Assembly: GCA_014879445.1 (NCBI GenBank)
Contig: JACSSC010000014.1
Location: forward strand, 1 to 39,842
Length of the DNA stretch: 39,842 bases
Reading direction: 5' to 3'
DNA from: Candidatus Competibacteraceae bacterium
GTDB lineage: Bacteria > Bacteroidota > Bacteroidia > CAIKAF01
Under the pieces are notes generated by a model, which saw only the letters and a program-made list of their open reading frames with translations, made no database searches and was not told the origin of the DNA. Made by a program: the position numbers and the translations under genes. Shown piece after piece: positions 2,039 to 11,587 of the stretch. The stretch's first letter is position 1, and the number at the start of each line of letters is the position of its first letter.

Positions 2039-3932
2039 TATATTAAAGCAATATTGGGGCTTTGAAAGCTTTCGCCCTATGCAGGAGGAAATCATTTCTT
2101 CCGTATTGGCCGGTCGCGATACCCTGGCTCTCTTGCCTACAGGCGGTGGAAAATCCATCTGCTTTCAAATTCCTGCGCTCCACAAACCGGGTATATGCCT
2201 TGTTATAAGCCCCCTCATCGCTCTGATGAAAGATCAGGTTCAAAACCTTAAAAAACGGGGCATCAAAGCGACTGCAATATATGCCGGTATGAGTTACAAA
2301 GAAACAGATACCGAACTCGACAACTGCGTTTTTGGCAATTACAAGTTTTTGTACGTTTCACCCGAACGCCTCAAAACGCAACTCTTTATCGAACGGTTCA
2401 AACGCATGAACTGCAACCTGATTGCGGTTGATGAATCTCACTGCATTTCTCAATGGGGATACGACTTCCGACCTCCCTATCTCGACATTGCCGATATTCG
2501 CGTCTATCACCCCCACACACCCATACTGGCGCTTACCGCAACCGCCACATCTTTAGTGATTGATGATATTCAGGAGAAACTGCTTTTCCCCAAAAAAAAT
2601 GTGTTGCGAAAAAGTTTCTATCGCCCAAACATCGTTTATACTGTTCAGCATACCGAAGACAAATTCTCAGAACTGGAGAAAAACATTCGCAATACCGAGC
2701 AAAGCGTTATCGTATATGTTCGCAACCGCAAACGCACACGTGCCATTGCCGAATGGCTCATGAAAAAAAATATTACAGCCCATTTTTATCATGCCGGGCT
2801 CGACCACGCAACACGCAACGAACGACAGGAAGCATGGCTCAACAACCAATTCCGTGTTATGGTTGCTACCAATGCCTTTGGTATGGGAATTGACAAACCG
2901 GATGTTCGCCTTGTGGTTCACATGGATTTGCCCGATTGCATTGAAGCATACTTCCAGGAAGCTGGCAGAGCAGGAAGAGACGAAAAACAAGCCACCGCCA
3001 TCCTCCTCTATCAGCAGCACGATATTGACGAACAGAAGCGATTCCTCGAAGAACAATTTCCGCCCATCGAAGAAATTAAACATTGCTATAATGCCCTTTG
3101 CGATTACCTTTCTCTGGCTGTCGGATCAGGCGAGAACAGCACTTTCTCTGTTGACTTGGGCGACTTCTCTTATCATTTCAAAATCCCCGTCAATACCCTG
3201 TTTCATGCATTGCGCTTTCTCGAAAAACAAGGATGGCTCAGCTTTACCGACCGCGAAGAGGCATTCTCAAAAATTCATATTCATAAACCGGATGTATTTT
3301 ACACATCATTGCCTTCCGATTTCGATCGCGAACTTATGCAAATGCTTGTTCGTTCGTATGAAGGTCTTTTCGATCAGTTTGTATGGATTCAGGAAAGCAC
3401 GCTGGCTCGCAAAATGCAAACTTCTACCGAACGCATCGTAAATCATCTACGTATGTTGCACCGCCTCGATGTGCTCCGCTATGCACACAAAAAAACAGGT
3501 TTCCGTATCACTCTCCTCTCCCCTCGCCTGCCTCAAAAAGATTTAATCATATCAAAAAAAATGTATGATGAACGCAAAAAATCAGCTACACGAAACATGG
3601 AATCGGTCATTCATTATGTTTCGCAAACCGACAAATGCCGCAATCTTGTACTATTGCATTATTTTGATGAAAATAGAAATGATAATTGTCGCCGGTGTGA
3701 TGTATGTCTTCAGACGCTAAGTCGCGAATCCGATACTTTTGCTCGTATCGTTCAACAGTTACAAAAACAACCCGACGATTTAATTTATCTGCCCGTTTTA
3801 GAACAACTCATCCCAGATATCAAATTCGACCAATATAAATATTTACGATGGTTGAGCGATCATCACATCATTCATATCAATCCGATGAATATGGTGATTA
3901 TTGACAGAATAAAATTGAATACCCTGCATTAA
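2022..3932 (+). CDS. recQ: ATP-dependent DNA helicase RecQ
   Basis: This 636-aa superfamily 2 helicase unwinds DNA 3' to 5' in recombination and replication-fork repair in the cytoplasm. Visible motifs: motif 0 near residues 14-21 (FESFRPMQ), Walker A TGGGKS at 40-45, the DESH Walker B box at 137-140 followed by CISQWG, and motif VI QEAGRAGRD near residue 320. A zinc-binding cluster of four cysteines (C539, C556, C559, C562) marks the RecQ C-terminal zinc subdomain. Only 74 residues follow it, which is short for a complete winged helix plus HRDC domain, so this resembles the short RecQ paralogue that often accompanies a longer RecQ in Bacteroidota. The start overlaps the preceding ATPase gene by 17 bp. 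The stop lies 8 bases from the convergent neighbour. Confidence 0.95.
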   Translation: MPSIHDILKQYWGFESFRPMQEEIISSVLAGRDTLALLPTGGGKSICFQIPALHKPGICLVISPLIALMKDQVQNLKKRGIKATAIYAGMSYKETDTELDNCVFGNYKFLYVSPERLKTQLFIERFKRMNCNLIAVDESHCISQWGYDFRPPYLDIADIRVYHPHTPILALTATATSLVIDDIQEKLLFPKKNVLRKSFYRPNIVYTVQHTEDKFSELEKNIRNTEQSVIVYVRNRKRTRAIAEWLMKKNITAHFYHAGLDHATRNERQEAWLNNQFRVMVATNAFGMGIDKPDVRLVVHMDLPDCIEAYFQEAGRAGRDEKQATAILLYQQHDIDEQKRFLEEQFPPIEEIKHCYNALCDYLSLAVGSGENSTFSVDLGDFSYHFKIPVNTLFHALRFLEKQGWLSFTDREEAFSKIHIHKPDVFYTSLPSDFDRELMQMLVRSYEGLFDQFVWIQESTLARKMQTSTERIVNHLRMLHRLDVLRYAHKKTGFRITLLSPRLPQKDLIISKKMYDERKKSATRNMESVIHYVSQTDKCRNLVLLHYFDENRNDNCRRCDVCLQTLSRESDTFARIVQQLQKQPDDLIYLPVLEQLIPDIKFDQYKYLRWLSDHHIIHINPMNMVIIDRIKLNTLH

Positions 3933-3937
3933 CAGGG
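3922..3937. terminator. Small hairpin between convergent recQ and the PLP-enzyme gene
   Basis: CCCTG and CAGGG form a 5-bp stem with a 6-nt loop, overlapping the recQ stop codon. There is no U-tract on either strand, so it is at best a weak shared terminator or RNA-end stabiliser. Confidence 0.3.
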
Positions 3938-3940
3938 CGA

Positions 3941-5086
3941 TTAGTATATGCCCAATGCCTGCTCCAAGTCGGCAAGCAAATCATCTATATCTTCAACCCC
4001 CACACTCAGGCGCAACATATTATCAACCACTCCAGCTCGAATACGCTCTTCTGCTGGTATCGAGGCATGTGTCATCGTTGCCGGATGATTCACCAACGAC
4101 TCAACACCTCCTAATGATTCAGCCAAACTGAAAACATGAAAAGAGGAAGCTATTCTGAAAGTTTTTTCCATGTCGGCATTTTTCAGCACAATGGATATCA
4201 TGCCCCCAAATCCACGCATTTGCTTACAGGCAATATCATGATTGGGATGATCCTCAAAACCCGGCCAATATACTTTTTCAATGGCAGCATGTTGACGCAG
4301 ATAGCGTGCTATTCGTTCGCCATTTTCGCAATGTCGTTGCATACGAAGATGTAGGGTTTTTATGCCACGCAGCACAAGAAAACTATCCATGGGGCCGGGC
4401 GTGGCGCCACACGAATTATGTATAAATGCTAAACGCTCATATAAATTCGTGTCATTGGTACACAAAGCGCCCATCACTACATCGCTGTGCCCTCCCAAAT
4501 ACTTGGTTACCGAGTGCATCACAATGTCTGCACCAAGGTCGGACGGATTCTGCAAATAGGGTGATGCAAATGTATTGTCAACACCTAATATCAATTCATG
4601 TTTGCGAGCCAATTCGGCACATGCTGCTATATCCACTATCTGCATCGTAGGGTTGGTAGGGGTTTCTATCCATATCAAACGGGTTTGTGCATTGATGTGA
4701 GCGGCAATCGCCGAGGCATCACTTAAATCAATAAAATGAAAGCGTATGCCCATAGGGGCAAATACTTTTGTAAACATGCGGTATGTGCCACCATACAAAT
4801 CACTGCCTGTTATCACCTCCTCCCCCGGTTTCAACAATTTAATGACGGCATCAATAGCACCCATACCACTCGAAAAACAAAGGCCATATTGGGTGTTTTC
4901 AAGCGACGCAATGCATTGTTCAAGCGCCTGCCGTGTAGGATTTTTTCCGCGGGCATATGCATATCCTTTATGCTTGCCAGGCGATTCCTGCACATAGGTT
5001 GATGTTTGAAAAATCGGCGTCATAATAGCGCCTGTGCCTGCATCAGGATGCTGACCGGCATGTATTACTTTGGTGTTAAATTTCAT
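3941..5086 (-). CDS. Cystathionine gamma-synthase/lyase family PLP enzyme
   Basis: This 381-aa protein is a full-length member of the Cys/Met-metabolism PLP-dependent family (MetB/MetC/CGL), acting in the cytoplasm on cystathionine or O-acylhomoserine. Family marks: Y43-A-Y-A-R near the N-terminus (phosphate-binding Tyr/Arg of the neighbouring subunit), SSGMGAI at 72-78 (cofactor-phosphate loop), D170-N-T-F-A-S, and the Schiff-base lysine K195 in SVTKYLGGH. The sequence does not by itself separate gamma-synthase, gamma-lyase and beta-lyase activities, so no symbol is given. It lies 57 bp downstream of sucC on the same strand with no clear promoter of its own, and may be read through from the sucC promoter. 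Confidence 0.9.
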   Translation of the reverse strand: MKFNTKVIHAGQHPDAGTGAIMTPIFQTSTYVQESPGKHKGYAYARGKNPTRQALEQCIASLENTQYGLCFSSGMGAIDAVIKLLKPGEEVITGSDLYGGTYRMFTKVFAPMGIRFHFIDLSDASAIAAHINAQTRLIWIETPTNPTMQIVDIAACAELARKHELILGVDNTFASPYLQNPSDLGADIVMHSVTKYLGGHSDVVMGALCTNDTNLYERLAFIHNSCGATPGPMDSFLVLRGIKTLHLRMQRHCENGERIARYLRQHAAIEKVYWPGFEDHPNHDIACKQMRGFGGMISIVLKNADMEKTFRIASSFHVFSLAESLGGVESLVNHPATMTHASIPAEERIRAGVVDNMLRLSVGVEDIDDLLADLEQALGIY

Positions 5087-5143
5087 TCCAACAAGCTTTA
5101 ATGTTGTGTCATCTTTGGGCCGAACTCAACCCCTTGCATCTCG

Positions 5144-6334
5144 TTAGGCCAATACCGACTTCACCTTCATGGCTGCTTCTTGCAACTCAATGGCCGATAG
5201 CACTTCTAAGCCCGACTCATCTATCAGTTTTTTGGCTATTTCTGCATTGGTGCCTTGTAATCGTACAATGATTGGCACGTGAATGTTGCCAATGTTTTTA
5301 TAGGCATCCACAATACCCTGCGCCACACGGTCGCAACGCACAATTCCGCCAAATATATTCACTAAAATGGCTTTTACATTATCATCTTTCAATATAATGC
5401 GAAACGCCTCTTCTACTCGCTTGGCATCGGCCGTGCCTCCCACATCCAAAAAGTTGGCCGGCTCTCCTCCACTTAGCTTAATCATATCCATTGTTGCCAT
5501 AGCCAACCCGGCACCATTCACCATACATCCTACATTTCCGTCCAGCTTCACGTAGTTCAGATTATATTTTCCTGCTTCTACTTCGGTAGGATCCTCTTCG
5601 CGTATGTCGCGGTAAGCATATAAGTCCTGATGACGATATAAGGCATTTTCATCTAAATTCACCTTCGCATCTACGGCAATAATTTTGTCGTCCGACGTCT
5701 TTAACACCGGATTAATTTCAAACATCGAAGAATCGGTTTGCTCATACGCCGTATAAAGATTGGTTACAAAACGCACCATTTCCTTGTAAGCATTGCCCGA
5801 CAATCCGAGATTAAATGCCACTTTTCGTGCCTGAAATGGCATCAATCCGGCCTTGGGGTCAATCTCTTCTTTAAAAATCAAATGTGGCGTTTTTTCAGCA
5901 ACTTCTTCAATGTCCATCCCTCCTTCTGTCGAGTACATGATGATGTTACGGCCTGTGCTACGATTTAGCAACACACTCATATAAAATTCTTTGGGCTCTG
6001 ATGCGCCCGGATAAAAAACATCCTGCGAAACCAATACCATGTGCACTTGCTTGCCTTCAGCACCTGTTTGCTTGGTCACCAAATTCATACCAATAATTTG
6101 CGATGATAAATCACGCACTTCATCCAATGTCTTAGCTAATTTAATACCTCCGCCTTTTCCACGCCCTCCGGCATGCACCTGTGCTTTTATCACCCACCAC
6201 TGTGTGCCCGTCTGCTCTGTAATCTTTTTGGCCGCCTCTACCGCTTCTTCTGCACTGTGTGCCAAAATGCCTTCCTGAATGGCCACGCCATAACGCTTCA
6301 ACACTTCCTTGGCCTGATATTCATGTATGTTCAT
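5144..6334 (-). CDS. sucC: Succinyl-CoA synthetase, beta subunit
   Basis: This 396-aa protein is the nucleotide-binding beta subunit of succinyl-CoA ligase, which couples succinyl-CoA hydrolysis to ADP or GDP phosphorylation in the TCA cycle. It begins with the family hallmark MNIHEYQAKEVLKRYG, so the ATG at 6334 is preferred over an upstream in-frame start at 6382. ATP-grasp features are visible: KAQVHAGGRGKGGG near residue 45, EINPV (metal/nucleotide region) near 200, and the C-terminal GG(T)ADA and NIFGGI segments of the CoA-ligase-like domain. Length and motifs are normal. The alpha subunit gene (sucD) is not in the window, so the subunits are unlinked here, which is common in Bacteroidota. 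Confidence 0.96.
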   Translation of the reverse strand: MNIHEYQAKEVLKRYGVAIQEGILAHSAEEAVEAAKKITEQTGTQWWVIKAQVHAGGRGKGGGIKLAKTLDEVRDLSSQIIGMNLVTKQTGAEGKQVHMVLVSQDVFYPGASEPKEFYMSVLLNRSTGRNIIMYSTEGGMDIEEVAEKTPHLIFKEEIDPKAGLMPFQARKVAFNLGLSGNAYKEMVRFVTNLYTAYEQTDSSMFEINPVLKTSDDKIIAVDAKVNLDENALYRHQDLYAYRDIREEDPTEVEAGKYNLNYVKLDGNVGCMVNGAGLAMATMDMIKLSGGEPANFLDVGGTADAKRVEEAFRIILKDDNVKAILVNIFGGIVRCDRVAQGIVDAYKNIGNIHVPIIVRLQGTNAEIAKKLIDESGLEVLSAIELQEAAMKVKSVLA

Positions 6335-6639: not shown

Positions 6640-7254
6640 CTAATTGAGCATATGGTCTTTCGGCTTGCTTAACGGAAATATCGTCTTCGATGAAAATACA
6701 AGCACTTGTAACACAACCAATATGATGATAATGATGATGAATGCAAATTGCGACGATGACTTAATCGTTGCATACTCTGATTCTGCTTGCTGCATAATCA
6801 GCTTCGACTCCTCCAACTGAATGGAAGAAAGCTGAATAAGTAATAGCAGTGATTTGTTTGTATAAAAATAATGATTGTCTGAAATGTTTTGTTCTATCTT
6901 CTTAAAATAATCGAGCAATGCCGTGGCAGTTACACTTTCAGTTTCCGTTAGTTTCGTTTTCATATAGGCATTATACAACTCATAAAACTCATGATTTAAA
7001 CTTCGTAAGTTCTCAGCTTTCATTCGCTGATCCATGTCGGCTTGTAACTCTTCCCTGATTTGATAAATAATGGATGTCATTTTTAAAATATATCCCTCAG
7101 CTATCAAACGGTCTTCATACAATGTGGCTATTGATTTTTTTACTTTGTTTGTATGAACCCTGTCAAGATAGTTGCTGAATAATACCAACAAGCAAAGTGA
7201 AAAAAGTAAAGCGGATGCAAAAATTTTATTTCTAACGCTATATGTCCATTTCAT
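6640..7254 (-). CDS. Membrane four-helix-bundle sensor protein without output domain
   Basis: This 204-aa protein has a transmembrane helix near residues 11-29, a long charged helical region (about 30-165), a second hydrophobic helix (about 171-189, with a run of isoleucines) and a 15-residue cytoplasmic tail. The arrangement is that of the 4HB_MCP periplasmic ligand-sensing bundle of chemoreceptors and histidine kinases. HAMP, kinase and methyl-accepting domains are all absent. It sits at the downstream end of a run of minus-strand signalling genes, 264 bp after the REC-PAS-kinase gene, and may act as a detached sensor for a soluble kinase next door. That partnership is inference from position only. 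Confidence 0.6.
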   Translation of the reverse strand: MKWTYSVRNKIFASALLFSLCLLVLFSNYLDRVHTNKVKKSIATLYEDRLIAEGYILKMTSIIYQIREELQADMDQRMKAENLRSLNHEFYELYNAYMKTKLTETESVTATALLDYFKKIEQNISDNHYFYTNKSLLLLIQLSSIQLEESKLIMQQAESEYATIKSSSQFAFIIIIIILVVLQVLVFSSKTIFPLSKPKDHMLN

Positions 7255-9359: not shown

Positions 9360-10571
9360 TTAAGGTTTTGAAAGAGTAAATTTAATACAAGTTCCTATAG
9401 CTTGTACAGGTTCAACCCAAATTTTTCCTCCATGCTTTTCTACTATCTTTCTACAAAGTGCTAAACCAATGCCACTTCCGGGATATTCGCGGGCCGAATG
9501 AAGCTTGGCAAAAACCTCAAATATCTTTTCATGTTGATCGGCTGATATGCCAATTCCATTATCGCTTACCGATATTTGCCAACTATCTTCCTTTTCTTCT
9601 ACCTCTATCCTGATTATCGGCGAAGCTCCCTGCTCATGAAATTTTAAAGCATTGCCAATCAAATTATACATGATTTGTTGCATGGCCACCAGCGATGCAT
9701 ACACCTCAGGCAATGTATCAAATATGATTTGTGCATTCTTTTCGGATATGCTGAGCTTGTATAACTCAATGATGTCAAGCATCAATGATTGTAAATTAAC
9801 TGACGACTTTTTCATCTCGGAACGTATGCTTCTTGAATAAGCCAACAAATCCTTAATCATGCGCTCCATTCGCTCAGCTCCGTCGGCTGCAAAAAATATA
9901 TATTGCTTCCCTTTATCATCTAATACATGACTGTATTTTTTTTCGAGCAGCGACATAAACGACTTTACCATTCGCAATGGCTCAACCAAATCGTGCGATA
10001 CACCATAAGCAAAGGCGTCTAACTCTTGTATGCTCTCCTGCAAACGATTGTTGGCATTGTTTAATTCTTTGTTTTTTATTATCAATTCGCGACGGGTATT
10101 GATCAACTCATTATTTATTCTGCTCATCTCTTCCAATAACTCATCTGGCGGTATCAAAGCATGATGCATTGCATATAATGAGTGTAATTGTTTTTCATTT
10201 CTGCGAATAATGTTTTGTTGTTCATTATTCATTTTTAACAGCTCTTCGGCTATATGCAAGGTATGATGCGTGCCATACACAACAGCCAGCCAAACATTTT
10301 CATCTGACCAAATGGCTGTAACCATACAGGCAATCGGATTATCACCCCGCTTGAAGTTTAATGGATAACTGCAAATCAATCCATGCTTTGATAATGATTT
10401 CCAAAACGAAATACCATCTTCTTTACTAAAATCATGCAGCAAATCATGAAATGACGTGGAGGCATCAAGCGGAGGCATAATGGAAAGTTGATCGTGATGC
10501 ACTTGTTTTATGATTGCATCGAACGAGCAATTCATAATAGTGGAAGTAACTAATGATGTTGATTTTTTCAT
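9360..10571 (-). CDS. Soluble sensor histidine kinase (phytochrome-like HisKA/HATPase core)
   Basis: The 403-aa protein has an N-terminal region (1-105) that may be a degenerate PAS domain but is not clearly recognisable. A helical/coiled-coil segment (about 107-185) is followed by HisKA with phospho-acceptor H193 in YGVSHDLVEPLRM, and HATPase_c with N307 (IGNALKF), D337 (SDNGIGIS) and GSGIGLAL. The SHDL.EPLRM box is the type found in phytochrome and PAS kinases that pair with Rcp1 regulators, and one is encoded 10 bp downstream. Its ATG overlaps the stop of the cobalamin-binding gene by 4 bp (10568-10571), pointing to translational coupling and a shared function. No membrane segment is present, so it should act in the cytoplasm, perhaps reading out the B12 protein. 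Confidence 0.9.
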   Translation of the reverse strand: MKKSTSLVTSTIMNCSFDAIIKQVHHDQLSIMPPLDASTSFHDLLHDFSKEDGISFWKSLSKHGLICSYPLNFKRGDNPIACMVTAIWSDENVWLAVVYGTHHTLHIAEELLKMNNEQQNIIRRNEKQLHSLYAMHHALIPPDELLEEMSRINNELINTRRELIIKNKELNNANNRLQESIQELDAFAYGVSHDLVEPLRMVKSFMSLLEKKYSHVLDDKGKQYIFFAADGAERMERMIKDLLAYSRSIRSEMKKSSVNLQSLMLDIIELYKLSISEKNAQIIFDTLPEVYASLVAMQQIMYNLIGNALKFHEQGASPIIRIEVEEKEDSWQISVSDNGIGISADQHEKIFEVFAKLHSAREYPGSGIGLALCRKIVEKHGGKIWVEPVQAIGTCIKFTLSKP

Positions 10572-11587
10572 GATGGGTTTGTCATTTTTGTAGCTTGTTT
10601 CACGGCCTCATCTGCTGATTCGGCAAATCCGTCAGCGCCCACTTGCTTACAAAGTCCAGGGTGTGTTTTAAATGCATAGCCACCCACTATGATGTGAAGT
10701 GAGAAACTACATGTTTTGCGTATATGTTTTATCAATTGCATAACTGCCGAGACATGATAAGGCATGGTAACAGAAAATGCAACCACATCAGGGCGGCGTT
10801 CTTCAATGGTTTGCACAAGCTGCACCTCAGGCATATTCGCGCCCAGATAATAAGTATCCCATCCTTCTAATTCAAAAAAGTCGGACACCATCCGTATGCC
10901 TAGCTCATGTAGCTCGCCAGCAACGGCAGAAGCCACTAATGTTTTTCCAATACGGGGCGTAGTAAATATTTGCTTATACAAACCTGACATAATAAGCTGC
11001 GTTGCTGCTGTACAGTAATGCTCATGCGCCACTGTAATTTCGTGGGTTTGCCATAACCGGCCCATTTCATATTGCACGGGCTGAAAAATATATTCATAGA
11101 TGTTTTTTACATGGGTCATACGCAGCAAATCGTCAATCAAAAGGGATGCTTCTTGTCGCTTTCCCTGCAACAACATATTGAGATATTGATGGGCTGCATG
11201 ATGAAAGGGATTGTCGTTTTTGATGAAGGAATCAAATTGTATGGAGGGTGCATTCATCCGATGTCGTGCTTCTTGTATGCATTTTTGATAGCTCAGTATG
11301 TGCACGACATCTTGCTTTTGAGATATTTCGACGGATAACGCATTCAAAAAACTATCCAATTCCGAAATAGGCATTTGACGTGCTTTCAACAATGAAATAG
11401 CCCACTCCATGTATGTGGCAAATATATCAGGGCAATCGAGCTTGACGGCTTCGTGTAAATAACGTAAATGAAATTGCACATCTGAAAAAGCAACTCTCTG
11501 GCTTTGGTCTGACAATTGCATATATTGGCAAATTCGCTCAGCCAGCATTGTATCTTCTTCGTATCCGTTCGGTGTGTTTGTTGTCAT
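10568..11587 (-). CDS. Cobalamin-binding putative photosensor (CarH-like, no MerR domain)
   Basis: The 339-aa protein has an N-terminal helical region (about 1-120) of no recognised family. A helical B12-binding cap domain follows (about 125-205), then a Rossmann-type B12-binding domain (about 213-335). The cap carries W179, then nine residues, then E189-H190 (WQTHEITVAHEH). This is the W-x9-EH signature with which CarH shields the adenosyl group of adenosylcobalamin. The B12 domain has E225-L-H227-E-L-G, matching the ExHxxG lower-ligand histidine motif, and VGGYAF near 301. The known CarH family uses light to break the Co-C bond and release a MerR-type HTH from DNA; that HTH is missing here. 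The gene is fused by a 4-bp overlap to a histidine kinase, so output through a phosphorelay is inferred. Non-light B12 sensing is possible. Confidence 0.87.
   Translation of the reverse strand: MTTNTPNGYEEDTMLAERICQYMQLSDQSQRVAFSDVQFHLRYLHEAVKLDCPDIFATYMEWAISLLKARQMPISELDSFLNALSVEISQKQDVVHILSYQKCIQEARHRMNAPSIQFDSFIKNDNPFHHAAHQYLNMLLQGKRQEASLLIDDLLRMTHVKNIYEYIFQPVQYEMGRLWQTHEITVAHEHYCTAATQLIMSGLYKQIFTTPRIGKTLVASAVAGELHELGIRMVSDFFELEGWDTYYLGANMPEVQLVQTIEERRPDVVAFSVTMPYHVSAVMQLIKHIRKTCSFSLHIIVGGYAFKTHPGLCKQVGADGFAESADEAVKQATKMTNPS

Follow-up and report, generated by a model that had tools for sequence, protein, structure and literature searches.

A predicted globin-first photocobilin and a partner-specific coupler in the adjoining histidine kinase gene of a Candidatus Competibacteraceae bacterium

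To our knowledge, the characterised photocobilins are either stand-alone proteins of unknown output or proteins fused to a cyclase. Photoglobin-B12 proteins were reportedly predicted by Schneider et al. 2022 (CSBJ 20:261; cited in PMC11796333 and PMC10151467), who are said to have suggested that the globin and the B12 domain form a bundle for light sensing in the neighbourhood of signal-transduction domains. Photocobilins were characterised by Zhang et al. 2024 as B12-plus-bilin photoreceptors (PMC10979010): in SasPcob, the bilin is contacted by Asp270, the main biliverdin contact, and by Trp296, while AbDPcob binds biliverdin poorly and is yet light-responsive. The same paper mentions a group with a C-terminal B12 domain, from predicted structures (PMC10979010), and the signature of light-responsive cobalamin domains has been given as GxxW, EH, GxxH and GxxxP (PMC11796333).

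The analysed DNA, called here the window, is a stretch of 39,842 nt from contig JACSSC010000014.1 of Candidatus Competibacteraceae bacterium (GCA_014879445.1; the own genome, G000 in our set, is 100% complete). One of its open reading frames encodes P0001, for which a CarH-type B12 site without a DNA-binding domain had been predicted from the letters alone. All the motif pieces were found with the right spacing in the sequence (G176-R-L-W179, nine residues, then E189-H190; G224-E225-L-H227; G249-A-N-M-P253), and the four parts out of four of the light-responsive cobalamin signature are present. Pfam matched B12-binding_2 at residues 132-201 (E 1.6e-12) and B12-binding at 217-329 (E 7e-22), so that these motifs are not a matter of chance, and neither Pfam nor curated-model searches revealed a MerR or any other DNA-binding domain in P0001, as the original prediction had it. 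The upper-ligand site is indeed of the CarH type; the closest solved relatives are, however, the photocobilins 8j2x/8j2w/8j2y (E 3e-21) and not CarH (2e-6). The AlphaFold2 (AF2) model of P0001 reached a pLDDT of 94.2, with five N-terminal helices in 8-111, and residues 126-336 superposed on SasPcob 8j2w with a Z score of 26.6. This structure search aligned the B12 half only, as expected with a permuted domain order and a result list full of B12 domains, and the globin assignment rests on sequence profiles and the AF2 helices. Promoter and terminator scans of the window gave nothing above chance. No P0001 homologue was present in three other genomes of the genus, whose contigs are either too short to compare with the window or without synteny to it beyond PgpH/LuxR. 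The coordinates of all features are collected in Table 1.

Table 1. Features of the window and of related loci (window positions, unless preceded by a locus name)
Feature	Position	Strand	Remarks
Predicted photocobilin P0001	10568..11587	-	339 aa, ATG start; N-terminal photoglobin and C-terminal CarH-type B12-binding domains
Phycobilisome-type globin (photoglobin) domain of P0001, residues ~8-125	11213..11566	-	Profile of 28 relatives, PF00502 in relatives, AF2 helices
B12-binding_2 cap (four-helix) domain of P0001, residues 132-201	10985..11194	-	Pfam; holds W179-x9-E189-H190
Rossmann B12-binding domain of P0001, residues 217-329	10601..10939	-	Pfam; lower-ligand H227, GxxxP
ATGA overlap (4 bp), photocobilin stop/kinase start	10568..10571	-	
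Partner histidine kinase P0002	9360..10571	-	403 aa; HisKA and HATPase_c preceded by a PAS-like domain (10-98) and a motif-bearing linker of two helices
Coupler motif 1 of P0002, NNEQQNIIR (residues 115-123)	10203..10229	-	
Coupler motif 2 of P0002, NNELINTRR (residues 153-161)	10089..10115	-	N153, N154, L156 and R161 invariant in 26/26 and 45/45
Rcp1/RcpA-type single-domain response regulator P0004	8918..9349	-	phmmer vs PDB: RcpA 2.9e-35, Rcp1 5.6e-35
REC-PAS-HisKA_3 kinase P0005	7519..8964	-	Overlaps P0004
Multi-PAS/GAF histidine kinase P0003	11663..14722	-	75 bp upstream of photocobilin gene
GGDEF diguanylate cyclases replacing the kinase downstream	L060:5938-6924, L061:2608-3597, L069:5936-7681		
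GGDEF diguanylate cyclases replacing the kinase downstream	L077:5947-7425, L100:5918-7330, L111:2937-4040		
ChuW/HutW-like radical SAM, upstream	L076:3621-4913 (Tangfeifania), L090:3493-4785 (Perlabentimonas), L099:3490-4860, L107:3531-4844		
ChuW/HutW-like radical SAM, downstream	L106:6086-7444		

Relatives of P0001 were gathered at 84 loci, 80 from one genome scan and four from class genomes, and 82 sequences were aligned. W179, E189 and H190, which figured in no search pattern, were invariant in 82/82, as was the B12-ligand H227, whose conservation is partly by construction since one search pattern contained LHE. Many of these relatives come from anaerobes and sediment organisms, sediment archaea included. 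Globin-B12 photocobilins were observed in archaeal MAGs, most of them with a kinase partner, the assignment following the MAG bins: Lokiarchaeota (L047, L056, L073, L101), Bathyarchaeota (L098) and Hermodarchaeota (L102).

The N-terminal 120 residues had been described as an unrecognised helical region. They are helical, but profile searches made the region recognisable as a phycobilisome-type globin. A profile built from the N-termini of 28 relatives matched allophycocyanin-type proteins best (1.1e-8), then smURFP (7.5e-7) and the bilin domain of SasPcob (1.4e-6); Pfam PF00502 (Phycobilisome) matched 19 of these 28 relatives, at best with 1.5e-10, and the whole-family profile matched the SasPcob globin together with many phycobiliproteins. 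The PDB search also gave a faint second alignment, of P0001 residues 37-89 on the C-terminal bilin-binding globin of SasPcob and AbDPcob. The P0001 N-terminus by itself had no match to PF00502 or another Pfam globin family; P0001 aligns throughout with D36 and W62. On the strength of the profile matches, of PF00502 in the relatives and of the AF2 helices, the region was assigned as a photoglobin, which together with the B12 domain makes P0001 almost certainly a photocobilin as far as its sequence tells. Its domain order, globin then B12, is the less studied one.

In the profile alignment, D36 of P0001 corresponds to SasPcob Asp270 and W62 to Trp296, the numbering of the SasPcob paper being the chain index plus 6, as fixed by W61 and E71-H72. 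D36 was kept in 76 and W62 in 80 of the 82 aligned homologues; two copies (L005 and L006) have neither of these residues, nor an output partner. The N-terminal globin is probably bilin-binding, and P0001 is predicted to use two chromophores. A covalent bilin cysteine (CxxD) was looked for and rejected in P0001: position 33 is an alanine (A33), and a cysteine stands there in 28/82 sequences.

According to the original prediction, the output of a protein devoid of a DNA-binding domain would pass by the kinase gene coupled to it through a 4-bp overlap, and this received strong support. Directly downstream of the photocobilin and on the same strand, the 84 loci carry a histidine kinase in 71 cases and a GGDEF protein in six, the others being two contig edges and five loci with neither. 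The kinase genes mostly overlap the photocobilin gene or lie within 20 bp of it. This pairing of photocobilin and output gene is kept across phyla, from Bacteroidota to archaeal MAGs. In most partners we found a common coupler, which consists of a PAS-like domain, without any Pfam match in P0002, followed by two helical NNE[QL]xNxxR motifs about 36 residues apart. The motif occurred in 67 of 69 partner kinases and in three of 50 further kinases encoded at these loci; two of these three carriers (L104, L106) pair with broken photocobilin genes, and setting them aside leaves 1/48. Five of the GGDEF partners (L060, L061, L069, L077 and L111) hold at least one coupler motif and the sixth, L100, a looser form. 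In 295 class genomes, the coupler profile gave two matches, both adjoining a photocobilin. In 17 of 18 photocobilin genomes, several of whose sequences are in the profile and six are not, it gave one match per photocobilin, all adjoining and none elsewhere; Aquiflexum lacus has two photocobilins and two matches. The P0002 kinase is therefore very likely the direct output of P0001, to judge from these gene and motif patterns.

Some partners, namely Paenibacillus kinases and the cyclase beside L109, carry the linker motif without the PAS-like domain, from which we infer that contact with the photocobilin would be made by the linker helix and not by the PAS-like domain. The AF2 model of P0002 has a layout resembling the LOV-kinase YF1. 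At L109, the cyclase is a PAS-GGDEF protein encoded directly upstream of the photocobilin (L109:3767-4840), and its N-terminus is made of the linker motif only (LNNELVNLQREL), with no PAS-like domain.

The remaining genes of the run are also signalling genes. The kinase half of P0002 has bacteriophytochrome kinases as its nearest solved structures, and the response regulator P0004, encoded 10 bp downstream of P0002, is over its full length closest in sequence to RcpA/Rcp1 among named solved structures. Both matches further back the kinase link, and the arrangement in the window resembles an output of phytochrome type with a separate B12/bilin protein as its predicted sensor. P0005 probably follows P0004 in this signalling cluster. 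A multi-PAS kinase upstream of the photocobilin, as P0003 is here, was also seen in several relatives. P0003 was considered as a second, LOV-type photoreceptor and rejected on reading its sequence: one of its PAS domains scores with LOV-kinase models, but the flavin-adduct cysteine motif is missing (GLTPRILKG). Downstream of the signalling run, positions 6640-7254 encode a small membrane protein; it carries a 4HB_MCP sensory module and has no obvious partner. Elsewhere in the own genome (G000:C47:73990-74406, L002), a separate CarH-like MerR-B12 regulator with W-x9-EH was observed, so that a second B12 photoregulator in this cell is likely from its sequence.

What is computed here is the domain identity, the residue conservation, the conserved gene pairing and the partner-specific coupler. 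By homology to SasPcob and CarH, P0001 would form a head-to-tail dimer, bind adenosylcobalamin base-off/His-on through H227 and hold its adenosyl group across the dimer by W179 and E189-H190. The N-terminal globin may hold a linear tetrapyrrole via D36/W62 next to the corrin, which would widen the usable light range. Light would break the Co-C bond and alter the P0001 dimer, as SasPcob and CarH suggest; the change would reach P0002 by protein contact, most likely at the NNE[QL]xNxxR linker helices in view of their strict co-occurrence and conservation, and P0002 would then phosphorylate the Rcp1-type regulator P0004. As a whole, this proposal of a globin-first B12/bilin photocobilin signalling by contact to P0002 and on to P0004 is held with good confidence. 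Counting against it are the missing haem oxygenase described below, the lack of a Pfam globin match for P0001 by itself, A33 in place of a cysteine, the possibly dark habitats of many relatives and the three genomes of the genus that have no homologue.

One alternative concerns the second chromophore. Haem oxygenase (PF01126) was undetected in the own genome and in 47 of the 51 other family genomes searched (48/52 in all), so that the supply of biliverdin is unexplained; the own genome also gave no PHY-domain phytochrome, no bilin reductase (PF05996) and no DUF2470-type enzyme. These absences in haem degradation are to be read within the limits of MAG incompleteness and of haem-degrading families as yet unrecognised. 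DUF2470/HugZ-type enzymes were considered as an alternative source of biliverdin and, being found in 2/52 family genomes and not in the own genome, were rejected; with bilin reductase over the cut-off in 2/52 as well, both are too rare to account for the missing haem oxygenase. The globin might then be without tetrapyrrole here, serving as a structural or docking surface only, with a sensor working on B12 alone (green light). The response of AbDPcob to light despite its poor binding of biliverdin and the absence of the covalent cysteine in P0001 are in agreement with this alternative, as is the missing haem oxygenase. Against it, sequences from genomes without haem oxygenase retain D36 in 46/49 and W62 in 49/49, and haem oxygenase or HutW-like genes adjoin the photocobilin in several relatives. 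We regard an empty globin as the less probable reading, though a serious one.

Where haem oxygenase was found in the family, it often adjoins the photocobilin: it lies 94 bp upstream in L095, a divergent copy lies 255 bp away in L055, and the genes at G328:C1 (L112) 2058-6173 encode, in direct succession, a photocobilin (globin-like repeat in three tandem copies), a kinase, a bilin reductase (PF05996, 7e-8) and a haem oxygenase (2.5e-11). The reading frame of the L112 kinase is broken near 3946-3997, by a frameshift or an assembly error. Five Bacteroidota relatives have instead a HemN-type radical SAM gene in the photocobilin gene run, directly upstream in four. Their products matched TIGR04107 (ChuW/HutW/HmuW) best, with 255-292 bits over nearly the full length, below the curated cut-off of 400; the HemW models (157-182 bits) and HemN models (124-137 bits) scored far lower. 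Enzymes of the ChuW/HutW/HmuW group open haem by a reaction that needs no oxygen; their product, anaerobilin, has its absorption near 445 and 795 nm (PMC10404700). The linkage suggests an anaerobic bilin source, and some photocobilin members may use a linear tetrapyrrole made in this way. No haem oxygenase or HutW-like gene was found near P0001 in the window genome, and a HutW candidate of the own genome was rejected, its score of 163 bits being within the range of HemW/HemN-type relatives. Binding of a second chromophore by P0001 in this organism is, on balance, somewhat favoured.

A further alternative keeps the same complex of P0001 and kinase and changes the signal to cobalamin status, that is to AdoCbl availability or redox/ligand state, the apo/hydroxo or AdoCbl form setting the kinase activity. 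Light may be absent where many of the relatives live, among anaerobes and in sediments with their archaea, which makes light uncertain as the physiological signal; it is the adenosyl group as such that the upper-ligand site senses, and the own genome has a cobalamin adenosyltransferase (PF01923) among other B12 proteins. On the other hand, the invariant CarH-type W/E/H site is the published light signature, the bilin-type globin is kept across the aligned members and the output proteins resemble phytochrome outputs, which makes cobalamin status an unlikely signal. Light is probably the natural signal of P0001. The remaining possibility, an ordinary methyl-transfer corrinoid protein beside a kinase by chance, has in its favour a fold common to MtbC/MttC/MetH corrinoid domains and is dismissed as highly improbable, given the far better matches to photocobilins, the invariant CarH-type W-x9-EH, the absence of a methyltransferase gene among the ORFs adjoining P0001 and the kinase/cyclase neighbour conserved across phyla.

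A wider and rather doubtful reading would have these proteins form a separate, phylum-spanning class of two-protein photocobilins, whose outputs (kinase or diguanylate cyclase) would be interchangeable via the dedicated coupler and whose members without haem oxygenase would carry an anaerobilin-like chromophore from HutW-like radical SAM enzymes. If this were true, anaerobes would own an oxygen-independent bilin photoreceptor. 

The bilin residues kept without haem oxygenase and the linked HutW-like genes of some anaerobes make oxygen-free bilin photoreception testable. The gene for the output adjoins that of the photocobilin, is conserved in most relatives and has a recognisable coupler, so that light-to-kinase coupling of the predicted photocobilin is directly testable; with the coupler common to kinases and diguanylate cyclases, the adjoining pair would offer a ready split optogenetic module.

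Compared with described systems, P0001 is nearest to the photocobilins SasPcob (8J2W/8J2X) and AbDPcob (8J2Y), with which it has in common a CarH-type B12 domain and a phycobilisome-type globin, including W-x9-EH, E/DxH and the equivalents of Asp270 and Trp296. It differs from these by the reversed order, with the globin first, by the lack of a fused output, by an output in trans via a kinase with a dedicated coupler and by an own genome without haem oxygenase. CarH/LitR proteins (TtCarH, 5C8A) have the B12 domain, the adenosyl pocket residues and the histidine lower ligand in common with P0001; unlike it, they carry a MerR domain and no globin, and their sequence match is weaker. Against the curated CarH model P0001 scored 48.8 bits (cut-off 400), and against the NCBIfam MtbC/MtgC models 48-52 bits (cut-offs 350-370). 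AerR/PpaA and the AppA SCHIC domain (Z 20-21) are, like P0001, of the B12 fold without DNA binding of their own and act by protein contact; their partner is a transcription factor, they have no globin and they are less similar than photocobilins. Among solved structures, Cph1/bacteriophytochrome-Rcp1 systems are closest to the kinase half of P0002 and to the regulator P0004, but P0001 and P0002 have no GAF/PHY bilin module and the photosensor would be a separate B12 protein. ChuW/HutW/HmuW (TIGR04107), the best model for the radical SAM genes of the five relatives, is absent from the window. In the open literature, Schneider et al. 2022 being outside that scope, no description of the coupler or of anaerobilin-type photoreceptors was found. 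The known kind is thus the photocobilin, and what is new, in a comparison that does not take in Schneider et al. 2022, is its globin-first form with a dedicated trans coupler.
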